Assembly: GCF_002104995.1 (NCBI RefSeq)
Contig: NW_024468255.1
Coordinates: forward strand, 372,001-436,000
Reading direction: 5' to 3'
DNA length: 64,000 bases
Source of the DNA: Linderina pennispora
Lineage: Eukaryota; Kickxellomycota; Kickxellomycetes; Kickxellales; Kickxellaceae
The notes beneath the pieces were generated by a model. That model searched no databases, was not told where the DNA came from, and saw only the letters and a program-made list of their open reading frames with translations. Below are positions 20,007 to 45,840 of the stretch, piece by piece. Positions within the stretch are counted from its first letter, which is position 1, and the number at the start of each line of letters is the position of its first letter. Both the position numbers and the translations under genes were made by a program.

Positions 20007-20105
20007 AAATATATACACATAGCAGAATTCAAAGCTAGTCTCGATATGGCTGATGCCCTTTGCACGCTGCAAAAAGATATCGCTCACAAAAATATGCAAA
20101 AGATG

Positions 20106-20176
20106 TGCTGTTGCCTGGAATCGAACCAGGGTCGACACGGCCACAACGTGATGTACTGCCACTATACTACAACAGC
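20106..20176 (-). tRNA. tRNA-His (GUG)
   Basis: Reads GCTGTTG ... CAACAGC plus A discriminator on the minus strand. The 7-bp acceptor stem is perfect, the T-arm is CCTGG/CCAGG with loop TTCGATT, and the anticodon loop TTGTGGC has GTG (His). A T-run follows 3' (ATCTTTT). No intron, and no encoded CCA. The same 71 bases recur at 26521 on the plus strand. Confidence 0.93.
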
Positions 20177-26520: not shown

Positions 26521-26591
26521 GCTGTTGTAGTATAGTGGCAGTACATCACGTTGTGGCCGTGTCGACCCTGGTTCGATTCCAGGCAACAGCA
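26521..26591 (+). tRNA. tRNA-His (GUG)
   Basis: Same 71 bases as the minus-strand copy at 20106-20176, including anticodon GTG. Identity extends at least from TTCAG just upstream to ACATCTTTT downstream. A TTTTT terminator follows at about 26596. The two copies point away from each other. Confidence 0.93.
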
Positions 26592-26787
26592 CATCTTTTT
26601 GGTCAGAAAACAAAAGTCACATGATCGATGGGTGGGGCCAGTAGGCGGGCGCGGCCATCGTCGTTTCGTCATTGATTTCAGCGCACAGTCGTTTTTTGTC
26701 GTCGCGAAATTGGCTTGTTTCTGTACTTTTCCTGAATTTTGCTTTCTTATAAACTAGGCTACTTATACAACGATTGCGTAGTGAGAA

Positions 26788-36887: not shown

Positions 36888-39800
36888 CTAGCATTTATTT
36901 ATAGTACTAAGAAGAGTATGCACAATAGCGTCTTTTTCTCTTGCTCGTTCCTGGAATGGGTCAAACCACATCCCACCAGCAGATATGTCAGCAGTACCTT
37001 TGAAACGAATATCGCTGAGAGTCGGGTTCCAAAACAGGTTGGTGTAGATGCCTCTTGCTAATGTTCGAATATCCTCGACGTTGGGTTGATTACTGTTGAA
37101 ATTACAGACTACGTGCCGCTCAAAGCCAGGAAGGGATGCCAAAATTCCTGTCTTTAATAACCCAATAGACTGAGCCCTTCCAGTGCACCAATTTTTAGTT
37201 ACCAGCATCTCTATATCCTCAGGAGATCGTTCACAATTTTCTCCAATACCGACTGTTGCGCAGAGACACAGTAGGTAGAGTAGCGACTCCCAATCATCCA
37301 GCTCTGTCTGTTCCACATCCGTTCCCAATAGGTTGCTGATGCTCCTATAGGGGAGCACTCCAACAGTCTCTGGATTCGGCCTTTGACGCTCGCCTACATC
37401 CACTGCGCAGTCAAAATCTATCAGCAGTCCACGGGGTGGTTTGCCTTCCTCACGCACAACAAGGATGTTGTTGTTTGAGATGTCACGGTGGAGGATGTTG
37501 CACCGCCGCAGAACCTCGGTGTGGCAGCGCATCGCATCGCCTAGCACAACAATAAGCTCGTGGACAGAATCGACGGTTTCCAGCGGTTCGCCGATCGGTG
37601 ACATAACCAGACGCTTGTGGACGCGGAACGGTATTGCTGTGTTGTCTGGCTTGCGCAGCGAGTAAAGCGGGCCCAGTGCATTTCTCGTGTTGTCCTCAAA
37701 TCGGCCCCCGTCAGTATCTATCGAGACACGACCACCGGCTTCGAGCTTTGGGTAGACCAGGTCCTCGACATCTGAGTTCGCAAGCTCCCCCTTGATTCTG
37801 CGCATAAACATCACCTCGTCTCGCCTATCTCTGGCAGGGTCCTCTGTGGCCTCCGGCCATGTGTCCTTCAAAGCAAACTTGGGCTTGATTTCGTCGCCAG
37901 AAGGCCTCTCGTCTGTCACCAAAAAGCACCTCGTGTGCCGACCGAAAAGGCTGTCTGCTCCTAGTAGCACCTTGTCAAAGTAGTACATTTTTGTGGCTGC
38001 AGAACACGATGACTCGTCTGCTGTGTCAGGACACTCGATGGTCCCGTAGTTGTTATCCTTGTCCCAGTGGACTGTCGTGTCGAACCCCAACTGGTCCTCA
38101 TCGCAGAGAGACCAGTAAACTAGCAGCTCGATGAATTGTTGGCGACCAAATGCAATGGACATGTCAAGAGCGCTGGATGAGAAGACCACATCGTTGGAAA
38201 ATAGACACACCCGCACCTCATTGTCGCAGACGGTCAAGCCAAAAACAAAGCGCCGGTCAAACTGAACCTTATAGATGCTGCGTGTGCTCTGCATCAGCTG
38301 CGCATATGCCTTGTCGATGATGCGCCGAGTTTTGCCTGGTCGTGCCTCGATGACAGCAAATGCATCAGCACAGCAGAAGCTGTTGAGCGGCTCGATACTG
38401 CTGCCTCTGTGTTGTGTAGTGATGCCTGCTTCGATGGTTGGAGAGCTGCCTGTATTGCTGGGATGGCACTCTTGATTCATGCATGGTAGAAGACGGCGAT
38501 ATGTGGGATGCTCCCCAAGCGCGTCTGCATCTAGTGCGCTAATGAAACTGTCGATCTCCTGTGCGACGAAATAAATGAATGACTGCACTGATGTATGTAT
38601 CTGTTTAGCATCGTCCGTATCGTCACCACAGGTACTGTCTGGTGGTGTAGATGGTGCTCCAATAGGCTGATGCTGTATCGACTCGGGTGTAATCCACTCC
38701 TGAAACCCTGCAAATGCATTGGTCGTGGCTGCACTGCGCTCATCCTTGCTCATAGCAGATGTTGTGCCGGAGAGCAGCAGCTGTCGATAGTTGTTGTTTT
38801 GCATGGGCGCTTCCAAAGCCGACTGGGTTTTGCTAGTGTCAGCTATTGCGTATGTGCTAGCTGTGTTGAGCCGATGCTCCAGCTCAGCTGAGATGTGCTT
38901 GGAAATGTTGCTGGCAAGCACTCTCCCGGCAGCACTCTGCGGTTTTGCGATGTCGAGCACTGCATCTGCATCTCTAATGAGCCGCGTCTTGGCCCACATG
39001 TCTGCCTCAGTATCTGTCTCGTCATCGTCATCACTACACCACCTGCTATCGAGTGAGGATTCTGCTGTATATGATGCCATACTCGGTGCTGAGGATACTG
39101 TGAAACTGGAAGACTCGTTCAACCTGGCAGCGGTCCCAATCTCGCTGGACTCTGGAGACCACTCTACATTGTTCTGTAAATGTTAGCTGATCATCGTATA
39201 GTAAACAGCTATGTACTTGCAAAGACGATAGCCATGTGCTTACCTTTTGGTTGGCTTGAGGTGGGTGAGTTAATTGGCGACAGCAATTTATTGCCTGAGC
39301 TTGAAACTTGTGCATGAGCACTCTGTCTAGTGCGAATTCTGGGCTGCATGCCAGGGCCTTTAGTTTTGGCTGCTAAATGCTTCTTTTTGCGCGACTGGCT
39401 GCTAGTCTTTTTGGTAGATGATCGGGGACTAGGTATTGAAGACTCGCCTACACTTCCATATACAGATCGATTACTATCCACCACTACCATTTCCCTTCCT
39501 ACTAGTGATGCACACCATATCCTTACCTTCACTTGAAATTGTTGCCTGCGCTATTTTTGCTGGCGATGGCCTGTTGTTCTTCACCAGATCCTTGTCTGTC
39601 TGACGCATCTTGACACCAGAGCTTACCAGCTGATCAGTCGTTGGAGCAGCGGGCTGAGCTCCTGTTGCTAATGGTATGACTACGATGGAAAACAAATGGC
39701 AGTTCATTTTAATGGAGTGTTCTCGATGCTATCAAATCTACCACAAGCATAGACTTACCTCCAGTTGAAATCTGAATCTGCTCAGGGCTTGCCAGCGATG

Positions 39801-40837
39801 GCATGTCGATAGGGTGTGAGAGTAGTGCCTGAATACTCTGATTGGTGTGGGCGCTTGCTCGTCTGTCCGCAACCCTTTTTCTTGTGGCCTGGCGCTTCTT
39901 TGCGCGCATTTGGCTGACGTCCTTCCGGGAAACAATCCGAGTACGCAACACCAGCGATTCACCTATTGCGTTTTATACTGTGTGATTAGTATCTAAAAAG
40001 CAAGTGCACATGCCATGCTAGTGACAACAATGTCTTACCATCCATATCGCTTGAAGTGTGTGCCTTTTTAGGAGGCGATGGTCCTTCATCAGATGAATCC
40101 TCATCATTGGCAATCTTTCTCTTGGTGATGGAGCATTCTGCCTTGGAAGTCACTTCAGTAGCAGACTGAACTCTTGCTGCTGACAGTACGACTACAGTGA
40201 CAAATAAATAGCAGCTCACTTTAGTATGATGTTCTTGGTATAGGTACAACTACGACTAGCATACACTTACCTCCAGTTGAAGTCTGAGCCTGCTCTGCGC
40301 TTGTCTGTGACAGAATGTCGATAGGATGCACCAGTAGTGCCTGAATATTCTGCTTGTTGCGAGCGCTTACTCGTCTGCCCACAGTCTTGTTTCTTGTGGC
40401 CTGGCGCTTCTTTGCGCGTAAATGGCTGTCAGTTTTGCGGGCAATAATCTGGGTATGCAACACCAACGAGTCATCTACAATGTCATGTATCGTGTGGTTA
40501 GTGTCTGAGGGGTCAGTACACCTACTGCTCCAACAATGCGAATGTCCTACATACCTTCCGCGTCACCATATGTGCGTGTCTTTTTGGCAGGCGACGATCC
40601 ATCATCATCGAGCGAACTGTCATCATCTGTGAACTTTCTCTTGGTGCTGGGGTTGAGCGCTTTGCTGGTGTCACTCACACGAGAAATGCACACCCTCTTG
40701 GGTGGGTATATTTGCAGGTCGATGCCTGGCTGGTCGGGGTCCGAAAGCGGCCGCTTGGTGCCGATGCAGACTATGGAGCCACAGGTGTGCCCCTCGAGTA
40801 CCTGCTGTTGCTGTGCGGGAATTTGCTTGCTGCTCAT
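36888..40837 (-). CDS. FunK1-type fungal protein kinase with amplified N-terminal exons
   Basis: Seven exons (40837-40555, 40474-40271, 40191-40039, 39962-39759, 39679-39527, 39447-39244, 39163-36888) give 1158 aa. All six introns are phase 1 and 76-80 nt. Residues 1-400 are disordered, basic and Ser/Lys-rich, with repeated RAKKRQATR-type patches (nuclear-signal-like). Residues about 600-780 are the conserved FunK1 N-terminal region (DAFAVIEARPGKTRR, DRRFVFGLTVCDNEVRVCLF). The kinase has RCNILHRDISNNNILVV (HRD 959-961) and LLIDFDCAVDV, with DFD (983-985) in place of DFG. FunK1 kinases are a fungal-specific family of unclear substrate. It shares a nearly identical central stretch with the tandem gene at 41374-43855. 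No signal peptide. Confidence 0.83.
39244..40474 (-). repeat. Tandem exon cassettes inside the FunK1-type gene
   Basis: Exons 2, 4 and 6 are each exactly 204 nt and exons 3 and 5 each exactly 153 nt, all phase 1-1. Exons 2 and 4 encode clearly related peptides (RAKKRQATRNKTVGRRVSAR versus RAKKRQATRKRVADRRASAH; ALLVHPIDIL versus ALLSHPIDMP). Exon 6 is a diverged third copy. The end of exon 1 (STKRKFTDDDSS) matches exon 3 (ITKRKIANDEDSS). Confidence 0.8.
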
Positions 40838-41373: not shown

Positions 41374-43855
41374 TCAAGCATCTGAGTCTGCCAGTGCTTT
41401 AACCACCATCATCGAGTCCCTCCAGGCTTTTTCCATGATCTCAAGCAAGCTTGAAGCAATTGTGCCCCTTTGACTTGCTCGTTCCTCAAATGGATTAAAC
41501 CACATACCATCAATATGTATATCTGCAGTACCCATGCAGCAGCCATTGCTAAGAGTTGGGTTCCAAAACAGATTGGAGTAGATGTTACCTGCTAGTTTCT
41601 GCAAATCCTTGATATCAGGCTGGTCACTCTTGAACTGATGGATTGTGTACCGTTCAAAGGCACGAATGGTTGCCAAAGCCCCTGCCTTTGATATTCCGAC
41701 AGATTGAGTGTTACCAGTACGCCAATTCTTGATTTCGAACTTCCTCATCTCTTCTGGTGATCGCTGATATCTCTCTCCAATACCGACAATTGCATTAAGG
41801 CAAACGAGATAGAGTAATGCCTCCCAATCATCCAGCTCTGTCCGCTCCACATTTGGGCCTAGTAAGTTGTTAATACTCATATAGATATTTGACCCTGACT
41901 GAACCGTACGAGTGCAGTCATTAATCTTTTTCACATCCAGTGCATTATCGAAGTCCATCAGTAGTCCGCGAAGTGGTTTGCCTTCCTCACGCACAACAAG
42001 GATATTGCTGTCCGAGATGTCACGGTGGAGGATGTTGCACCGCCGCAGAACCTCGGTGTGGCAGCGCATCGCATCGCCTAGCACAACAATAAGCTCGTGG
42101 ACAGAACCGACGGTTTCCAGCGGTTCGCCGATCGGTGACATAACCAGACGCTTGTGGACGCGGAACGGTATTGCTGTATTGTCTGGCTTGCGCAATGAGT
42201 AGAGTGGGCCCAGCACATTTCTCGTGTTGTCCTCAAATCGGCCCCCGTCAGTATCGAACGAAACACGACCACCGGTTTTGAGCTTTGGATAGACCAAGTC
42301 CTCGACATCTGAGTTCGCAAGTTCCTCTGTGATTCTGCGCATAAACATAACCTCGTCCCGTGTGTCGTCATGGTCCTGTAGAACCTCCGGCCATGAATCC
42401 TTCACAACAAACTTGGGCTTGATTCTGTCACCAGCAGGGTCCTCATCTGTTACCAAAAAGCACCTCGTGTGCCGACCGAAAAGGCTATCAGCTTTGGCAA
42501 CTTCATCTCTGAAGTAGTACGTTTTTGTTGCCTGGCTGCCCGATGACTCGCCTGTAGTGTCAGGGCACTCGATGATCCAGTACTCGTGCTCACTATCCCA
42601 GGTCATCGTCGGATCATACCCCAGCTGGTCTTTGTCGCACAGCGAGAGGTTCACCAGTAGCCCAATGTACTCCCGACGACCTGCGCTTATTGACACGTCC
42701 ATGGGGTTGCTTGCAAATATGCAGTCGTTTGAGAACAAGCAGACCCGCACTTCAGTTCCACAGGAGGTCTGTCCCAGAATAAAGCGGCGATTCGGCTGGG
42801 CGGCATACATGTGGCGCGAGTAGTCCACAAGCTGCTTGTATGCGTCATTCTTGTCCTTGCGGGTGTTTGAGTACTTTGCCTCGACAATGGCGAATATATC
42901 TGCATAGGACATATCAGGCAGCTGCTCTTCCAAATCGCCAGGTCGACAGGTGGTCAACCCGATGTCAATCTTGCGGTCGTCGTCGCCGCATAGGGGCTTT
43001 CTGTTCGTCTTCGGATAGCAGATGATGCAGCGCTGATGAACGACAGAAGGGAAAAGCGTACCGAGACCAAGTTTGTCAAAGAGGAACTTGACAAATGGGG
43101 CAACAAAGTGAACGAAGGACTGGAAAGGGGTGTACAACTTTGTTTCTTTCTTGCCGCCGGCCTTGCCCTTGTTGTGGTGGCGGACCCACACCTGCAGCTC
43201 CTCCAGGATTCCTCGCAGACTTTCGAGGAACTCCCTCCTTTTAGCCTTATACCCTCTGGTTCGAAGTCGACGCGAGCGCGGGCTTTCGTCTTTGGCGTCC
43301 TTGTACAACAGGTTCATGGTGTGAGTGAGTATGCTGCTCGCATCAGAACCATCTGCATTGGGGTTCAGCAAATGTTCCAGCTCGAGGTGGATAATGTCGG
43401 CTATGGATGAAAAAACACTACCCGCCTCTCCCCTCGGAGCTATGATAATGTGGATTTGGTCGGTACCCTCGATGAGTTGGCCAGAGACAACACTCTCGGC
43501 GAGCTCTTCGCGCTCTGCCTGGATCTCTTTTTTGGTTAAGAAGCGATTCTGCAGCTGGTCTATATCCAGAGGCCTTTGCAGGAGTTCGGTCTGCCGGTGA
43601 CGACGATGCTGTCTCTTCCCTTGACCTTGATTGCTGCCTATTTGTCAAGTGTTGTGTTAGTAGACATGCTCTTTTGGTTAAAAACGTACGAGGATGTTTC
43701 CAGTACTTACTGTTGCTGCTGCTGTTTTGCAACGTGTTGTCGTTTGGCGCTGACGGCACCGGTGAGTGACTGAGCGCTTTGCTCACGTCGCTCCCTCTCA
43801 GGCGCTTGCCTGGACTGTTCTTGAGTGAGATATTGCTTGTGCGTTTGGCAGACAT
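41374..43855 (-). CDS. FunK1-type fungal protein kinase with nuclease-like N-terminal motif
   Basis: Two exons, 43855-43711 and 43637-41374, give 802 aa; the 73-nt intron joins NNSS to SNQGQGKRQ in frame. Exon 1 is short and disordered (MSAKRTSNISLKNSPGKRL) with SDVSKALS like the neighbour gene. Residues about 215-360 carry the FunK1 N-terminal domain: KIDIGLTTC, then IVEAK (299-303), then YKQLVDYSRHMYAAQPNRRF. The D...ExK order resembles a PD-(D/E)XK nuclease core. The kinase includes FVVKDSWPEV (candidate lysine), NILHRDISDSNILV (HRD 586-588) and LLMDFDNALDV (DFD 610-612). It lies upstream of, and in tandem with, its paralogue at 36888-40837. Confidence 0.83.
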
Positions 43856-45840
43856 GGTTTAAATATTAGGTGTAAGTAAAAAATAATGTCCAAAGGGCAA
43901 AAGTACAGGACACATAGGATGCTTGCGCAGCCAGGATTTGTAGGACGGCGACTGCAGCGGCACTGTCTACTGTACCTGCTTGAACCCACTCTGTCGGCAG
44001 TCCCTTTTTGCACATGCAGGCAGATGTGGCTTGTGTATGTGCCGTATTTCGGTGCACGACTAAGCTGCTGATGGTTTTTTTGTCACTTCAATTAGCCATT
44101 GTACCTGCTTCAGTTCGGGTTATCCACGCATTTCCCCATCTCCCCTGGCCTCTATCCATCGTTTCTGCATACCCATTTCTTTTATGTGAATACTAGCTCA
44201 TTTACGGTTTGAAAAATGTATTCATTTATATATAATTCACTATGTGTACATATCCAAATGCTCATGGGCGCAGGTCGGCACCAACATTCCGTAGAGGCCA
44301 CAAAAATGTCACTGACAATCTGCAAACCTCTGGGCGTCAGTGCCATCAAGTTCCTTTTCTGGAATAGAAATACTGATCAGCTATGGAGAACGTCAAGCCT
44401 GGCTGCACAGGCGAGTAAGGGGGCGCCTACCTACATCGCCTCCGCATACCTTTCCCCAAGAGAGTGACATCTGGCCACAAATGTGGTCGGGGATACTTGT
44501 TACCCACACACAAGGAGAGCAGCAACACATGTGATCAGCAAATGAGCTGCTGTCTATATTTGGATCCAGGGGTGGTTTAAGGCGCCCCAGATGCCACCCT
44601 TGCTGTGCTATAGAGCTGGGGCTAGGTTCTTGAGCCCAAAAAGGTGTGTGCAGCTCCTCCTGTGTACTATACCGTCTGCTCGGTTTTTGCTGAATGGCGC
44701 TCATGCCAGCGGGCTGCATGAGCGATTGGTAAAGCCGCTTTGCCAAATCATGGTCATTTTGCGCCGTGTCCCTCTTTTCCAGACAAATCACTCGTTACTC
44801 AGTTGGCTTGTAGTTGTCGATGGTGACGTTTCTTATTTGCAACTCTGCTCCGCATATAGGTCTTGGGTGCTGCCACAGCGAATAAGGAGTGCATCCTGCC
44901 CTGCTCAAAAGGCTTGCAGTGCCATTTGCATAATCTATTTCCATGCGGCTTACACAGTGTCTTGGTTGGAAATGCACGCCTGCCTTTATGCTGCTCACAG
45001 TCCATACTGTCAAAATCCCCTCCATCCCCTGCATGCTCGAAGCAAGCAGAACAGCGGGTTGTCACTGTCAAGTGTTTTGTGCATGGCCTTGCGCTGCGTG
45101 CTGCTGCGGATCATTGTGCAGCTGCTATTTTCGGTTAATTAAGCTCCTGTTGCGCAACCAAAAATGCTTGTTCTGCTCATGCCAATAGCCCCTGATTTTG
45201 GAGCAGACTGACACCACATGCACGGCCATTGTTCATACTCATTCTCGCTGCTCCATCTCCGCATGCTTCAGTGCTAAAAGTTGTTTTTGGCCTGCCAGTG
45301 TGGAATTCGAGCGATGCCAAACTTTTATTGCTCGGGACTTTCAGTCCAAGCTCCGGATCCACATAGACTGCAATGCATGCGTTGCCGCTGCTGCCCCTCA
45401 GAAGCAGTACAATGAGTCTTCTAGTGAAAACCAGCGTGCGTAGCAAAGGAATTACTCAAAGTTCTCTTGGCAGGTGATAGTACGGATAAAGTAAGCGGCA
45501 CACCCAGTGGTCTGTAGTGCCTGGTATCATGAAATAGTGTATCAATTTCTACTTTCTGTACGTCGTCCCACTATATAAGCTATTGAGGTATTCGAAGTAT
45601 ATGCCAGCAATTTCTTGTAGCAATCTTATTTTCGATATTTGCATGGCTAAAAAGTGGACTTCTGACTGGATTGCTCTTATATAGTCATCACTGGGACAAT
45701 AGGAGCTAGCGACTCTACAGACAAAAAACCACATACCAATCTCAGCATGTAAACTGCTGCAGGTGATGCTAACGGTACAAATATTCACTAGGATTTGAGA
45801 CACAGACCAGAAAATCAATAAATTGTGAATGAAACAGATG
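43856..45840. other. Two-kilobase region without a supported gene
   Basis: Longest unannotated stretch. Frames exist on both strands but none has a start, splice signals and a family together. On the minus strand, 45071-44799 has Cys/His pairs (CSAC, CEQH, CKPH, CKWHC) and is noted as a finding. A 183-codon plus-strand frame overlaps it. The left part carries the promoter of the FunK1-type gene at 43855. Confidence 0.45.

Follow-up and report, generated by a model that had tools for sequence, protein, structure and literature searches.

In the soil fungus Linderina pennispora, a member of the Kickxellales (assembly of 26.17 Mb in 222 contigs), we analyzed a stretch of 64,000 nucleotides from contig C190 (positions 372001 to 436000), here called the window. 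Reading of the sequence revealed a kinase gene on the minus strand at 40837-36888, whose seven predicted exons, once joined, would encode 1158 residues. Exon 1 (40555-40837; 283 nt, i.e., 94 amino acids plus 1 nt) begins with an ATG at 40837 and is followed by a GTATG donor at 40554. Between it and the kinase exon lie five cassette exons: exon 2 (40271-40474; 204 nt, phase 1-1, delimited by its splice sites), exon 3 (40039-40191; 153 nt), exon 4 (39759-39962; 204 nt), exon 5 (39527-39679; 153 nt), and exon 6 (39244-39447; 204 nt). Exon 7 (36888-39163, stop codon included) has an acidic and Ser-rich start and continues into the kinase. Introns 1 to 6 measure 80, 79, 76, 79, 79, and 80 nt, and all are of phase 1 and bounded by GT..AG; every cassette exon in the window is a multiple of 3 with phase 1-1. 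Exon lengths, intron phases, and coordinates were thus as an earlier note on this DNA had given them. An acceptor at 39173 for exon 7 was discarded as out of frame, and 39163, which is also used by database model P0001, restores phase 1. The PF17667 match in exon 7 (36891-39173) scored 181.7 bits, and the kinase part therefore lies far above the curated Pfam cutoff of 24.1 for FunK1/Pkinase_fungal. By this profile score the product is assigned to the FunK1 family as a predicted kinase. The exon 7 protein contains HRDIS, presumably the HRD of the catalytic loop, and IDFD, which we take to be the D-F-x metal-binding motif, with D in place of the G of DFG. Elsewhere in the window, two tRNA-His genes lie in opposite orientations, at 20105-20176 (minus strand) and 26521-26592 (plus strand).

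The region upstream of exon 7 is made up of a block of ∼512 bp (an A exon, an intron, a B exon, and a second intron) that is present three times on the minus strand. Repeat unit 1 (40192-40707) comprises the final ∼150 nt of exon 1 as the first A module, intron 1, exon 2 as the first B module, and intron 2. Repeat unit 2 (39680-40191; 512 bp, with a repeat spacing of 512) consists of exon 3 (A), intron 3, exon 4 (B), and intron 4, and the diverged repeat unit 3 (39164-39679; 516 bp) consists of exon 5 (A), intron 5, exon 6 (B), and intron 6. A 300-nt direct repeat with 512-nt spacing spans an exon-intron-exon stretch; the array was not reported by a tandem-repeat finder, whose longest period is 500. 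Units 1 and 2 are 73% identical (495 aligned bases), units 2 and 3 60% (489), and units 1 and 3 61% (482), and for each pair none of 400 control segments aligned as well.

Aligning exons 1 to 6 at the DNA level, the check named by the earlier note, revealed similarity beyond chance for corresponding exons and confirmed the relationships it had proposed. Exons 2 and 4, claimed to be related, share 78% DNA identity without gaps and 40 of 68 residues (0/2000 control segments as good). Exon 6, described as their diverged copy, was likewise unmatched by 2000 controls against either exon (ungapped peptide comparison, p = 1e-4 with exon 4 and 5e-5 with exon 2), and the same held for the tail of exon 1 and the exon 3 it was said to resemble. 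Exons 3 and 5 were also equaled by none of 2000 controls (ungapped peptide p = 5e-5; gapped peptide shuffle, p = 0.022). The homology of these adjacent exons, which are alike in order, orientation, and phase, runs into the introns: as good a match was found in 0 of 2000 controls each for introns 1/3 and 2/4, in 2 of 2000 for introns 4/6, and in 8 of 2000 for introns 1/5. No significant similarity was detected between the exon 1 tail and exon 5 alone (99 of 2000 controls as good), nor between the noncorresponding pairs exon 1 tail/exon 2, exon 3/exon 4, exon 2/exon 3, and exon 5/exon 6 (120 to 380 of 2000). The proposed growth by exon duplication thus holds as an internal duplication, but each copied unit comprises two exons and their introns (∼512 bp) rather than a single exon. 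Because the duplicated block has a common descent, equal exon lengths and phases call for no special constraint; the equality of exons 3 and 5 is partly coincidence, as exon 3 measures 156 nt on C157 and C57 owing to a 3-nt indel.

A tandem FunK1 paralogue lies next to the gene at 41374-43855 on the minus strand (PF17667 score, 187.1 bits). It has a first exon of 145 nt (43855-43711), a phase-1 intron of 73 nt (43710-43638), and a main exon, and no cassettes were found in it. For two other FunK1 types, at loci L010 and L020, an automatic listing gave several possible two-exon readings, of which those with a GTAAG donor are predicted to have a short first exon and a phase-1 intron. The first exon of L010 is similar to two exons of the window gene, exon 1 (p = 0.0016) and exon 3 (p = 0.0024), and all three have VCIGTKR and a KRK...SPPKK pattern in common. 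Loci L025 and L027 are 75% identical over exon 7; their DNA similarity ends near the start of this exon, and no cassettes were found in either. Derivation of the B exon from the start of the main exon of the tandem paralogue was not accepted (p = 0.015 for exon 2, 0.20 for exon 4, and 0.37 for exon 6).

Genome-wide, we counted 61 PF17667 matches, haplotype duplicates included, of which 24 had an E value below 1e-30. The 1674-bp cassette region recurs at four other places with 92-97% identity, on contigs C157, C57, C175, and C186, each copy having three repeat units as in the window. Searches with the exon 4 and exon 3 peptides retrieved the same five places, and the sole further match, on C112, had an E value of 0.18. 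The array had been thought specific to one gene; it is indeed absent from the tandem paralogue, but it is common to the four further assembled copies. Outside Linderina, no cassette-bearing protein was found among the ∼8000 candidates scored per protein search. The five assembled copies do not amount to five loci, for the flanking sequence of C175 is 98% identical to that of C57, and that of C186 is 99% identical to that of C157. We interpret these pairs as alternative haplotypes and therefore count three loci. In a tree of the 15 unit sequences, the units grouped by position (support of 100/98 for unit 1, 88/93 for unit 2, and 100/100 for unit 3), and the three units are therefore older than the parting of the copies. 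This topology indicates that the tripling predates the spread of the gene to other loci. Separate insertion of look-alike exons, shuffled in from elsewhere, would suit the lack of a clear source for B in the genome; however, introns 1/3 and 2/4 match in the same order as the exons, whole units align, and cassette matches with E <0.1 were confined to the five copies, and we regard such an origin as highly improbable. In a Pfam scan, a frame at L013:4930-6300 (minus strand) contained an intein end with a homing-endonuclease match (PF05204, PF05203) that runs into a V-ATPase A-subunit-like frame. L017 has a similar frame, and both loci hold single adjoining FunK1 copies.

The database protein models P0001 to P0005 disagree on the cassette exons. 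P0001 (C157 copy, 1185 aa) includes all seven exons, with the acceptor of exon 2 placed 30 nt upstream; exon 2 is thereby extended to 234 nt, and a CTAAC branch-like motif falls inside it. The window's own model, P0002 (730 aa), starts inside exon 7 and omits the cassettes, and P0005 (C186 copy) also begins inside exon 7. P0003 (C57 copy) begins inside exon 4, and P0004 (C175) covers parts of exons 1 and 2 only and looks chimeric. The frame across exons 1 to 6 is open on C190, C157, and C57, the indel in exon 3 being of 3 nt. On C175 and C186 it is broken in these exons by one-base indels, mostly in short runs of the same base as judged by eye, which reflect either decay or assembly error. The kinase frame of the C57 copy is shortened by an early end in exon 7.

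In the three copies with an open exon 1 to 6 frame, variable sites at codon positions 1/2/3 numbered 24/28/23 in exons 2 to 6 (918 sites) and 97/100/165 in exon 7 (2270 sites); no excess at third positions was found in the cassettes. Over ten pairs, dN/dS was 0.57-0.99 for exons 2 to 6 and 0.24-0.40 for the kinase exon, and exon 2 versus exon 4 gave 0.73-0.83 in three copies. The missing third-position excess and the dN/dS of 0.57-0.99 therefore indicate that amino acid constraint in the cassettes is weak. Across the five copies, none of 24 splice-dinucleotide positions was variable, versus 74 of 447 interior intron sites (Fisher p = 0.021). Exons were modestly more conserved than introns: variable sites amounted to 75/918 in exons 2 to 6 versus 58/473 in introns (Fisher p = 0.016 in three copies, 0.022 in five).

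Some of these observations would suit a decaying or noncoding upstream repeat, whose cassettes would for the most part no longer belong to the mature mRNA; the functional protein would begin in exon 7, and the open frames would be remnants. The exon 7 start of P0002, the lack of a third-position excess, and the frame breaks in two of five copies all point in that direction. The three open frames with their 3-nt indel, the invariant splice dinucleotides, and the lower variability of exons than of introns speak against it, as does the retention of splice sites, phase, and open frame across units that are 27-40% diverged. The support that sequence evolution gives to a coding use of the cassettes is weak. 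We consider the decaying-repeat explanation unlikely, albeit the most serious competitor.

By composition, five of the six exons 1 to 6 fall on the disordered side of the charge-hydropathy line, so the cassette region is probably disordered. A single-sequence structure prediction for P0001 was uninformative (mean pLDDT of 32.6, no residue reaching 70). The region had been called nuclear-signal-like, which proved a weak description: a simple nuclear localization signal consensus scan matched exon 1 (monopartite) and exon 4 (bipartite) only, but shuffled exons matched too, at rates that ranged from 0.05% to 28% of trials across exons and motifs. Nuclear targeting by the cassette region is possible, with no support from the motif scan; its composition suggests that its most likely role is that of a loosely constrained, basic, disordered arm in front of the kinase. 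Alternatively, the cassettes might form an in-frame splicing module, in which a varying number of phase 1-1 exons would yield isoforms of different N-terminal length and the copies would be kept for that reason. Excerpts of one account discuss duplicated exons as promoting alternative splicing (PMC3064661), and the exon symmetry in the window would permit it. However, this symmetry follows equally from tandem duplication of a phase-1 block, and the protein sequence evolves close to neutrally, with nothing to suggest constraint on particular isoforms, which leaves a splicing module doubtful.

The alternative-haplotype contigs (loci L014 and L024 on C186 versus L015 and L016 on C157; L018 on C175 versus L019 on C57) are 98-99% identical ∼9-14 kb downstream of the gene pair. 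Across the kinase pair, identity in the same contig pairs is mostly 90-97%, with dips at the 3′ ends of the kinase genes to 84-86% and 79% (C157/C186) and to 77% (C57/C175). Residue identity among six kinase copies is 89-96% up to the DFD motif and drops abruptly to 39-78% beyond it. The unit tree sets C186 and C57 apart from the other three copies, C190, C157, and C175, and thereby separates C186 from its haplotype partner, C157. Within the window, the tandem kinase genes are 92% identical over a 300-nt core (37396-37695 versus 41933-42232) and 69% identical over another 300 nt at equal spacing (36923-37222 versus 41457-41756), a difference that looks like gene conversion. Tentatively, and with the haplotype divergence, the identity switch, and the unit tree as hints, the cassette gene and its partner may form a polymorphic, exchange-prone kinase locus whose haplotypes and loci differ in N-terminal arrays and in swapped C-lobe types. 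By analogy with recognition or conflict genes, in-frame cassettes might then serve as raw material for variation, a notion we hold just as loosely. Against this, divergence extends beyond the genes (the 3 kb adjoining the C57 gene are 95% identical to C175), and silent sites diverge together with amino acids; haplotypes that are old or exchanged and under no selection would account for the pattern as well.

Homology of the gene-pair block (∼8.2-8.5 kb) to six other copies ends sharply at window positions 45430-45452 and, at the other side, between 36922 and 37245, depending on the copy. Past the first boundary, the five copies compared continue in mutually shared sequence that is absent from the window, and spread of the gene pair by a transposon was rejected on this ground. 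The repeats listed, which comprised 20 of 39 direct-repeat families and 25 of 34 inverted pairs, included no fitting terminal repeats. Segmental copying is the simpler reading.

Homology of the units, their order and phase, the retention of splice sites, and the three unit groups are established features of the array. We think it likely that a FunK1 gene was lengthened by two successive tandem duplications of an A-intron-B-intron block, that the cassettes are part of the mRNA, and that the gene was copied afterwards. The ancestor would have been a two-exon FunK1 gene with a short basic/acidic first exon (A), a phase-1 intron, and a kinase exon, to which a second small exon (B) and its phase-1 intron were then added. 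A first tandem duplication of the ∼512-bp block may have left the diverged unit 3, and a later one would have given rise to units 1 and 2. As the two introns, both of phase 1, were copied along, the added exons would be in frame, and the kinase frame would be preserved whether they were spliced in or left out. The outcome would be ∼300 extra residues of a basic, Ser-rich, probably disordered N-terminal arm, whose exons would be present in the mRNA and which might serve, under loose constraint, as a tether or for targeting. Later, the gene would have been copied to other places together with the neighboring FunK1 paralogue.

We read the array as the product of an ordinary tandem duplication of an exon pair, located in an N-terminal arm that evolves fast and is probably disordered. 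It resembles tandem exon duplication, a process to which papers on duplicated exons are devoted (e.g., PMC9741552, PMC3064661), in that tandem copies with their introns are in frame and of the same phase, and differs in that two exons were duplicated as one unit, with introns of 76-80 nt, in a fungal gene and a probably disordered region. According to the excerpted account of FunK1 families, these underwent lineage-specific expansion by duplication, and their function was left to further experiments; those excerpts mention no array in which phase-1 exon pairs precede the kinase (PMC3203195). Nor was such an array described in the titles and abstract openings of the papers listed on FunK1, Linderina pennispora, exon duplication, internal repeats, and Kickxellales.

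Judged from the sequence, the tandem exon-pair triplication is real and neatly preserved, and it represents a fresh example of a known process, exon duplication. It provides a clean, datable case of a short-intron fungal gene lengthening a flexible arm, in which phase-1 introns travel with the block and so keep each step in frame. The FunK1 cluster as a whole, with its divergent haplotypes, may be of more interest than the cassettes, the most interesting loose end being the haplotype divergence around the kinase pair together with the sudden change in identity at the DFD motif. With three diverged units in three loci, one could ask whether selection maintains such arms or only tolerates them, and the sequence evidence leans toward an arm that is tolerated at the amino acid level while its splice sites are kept.
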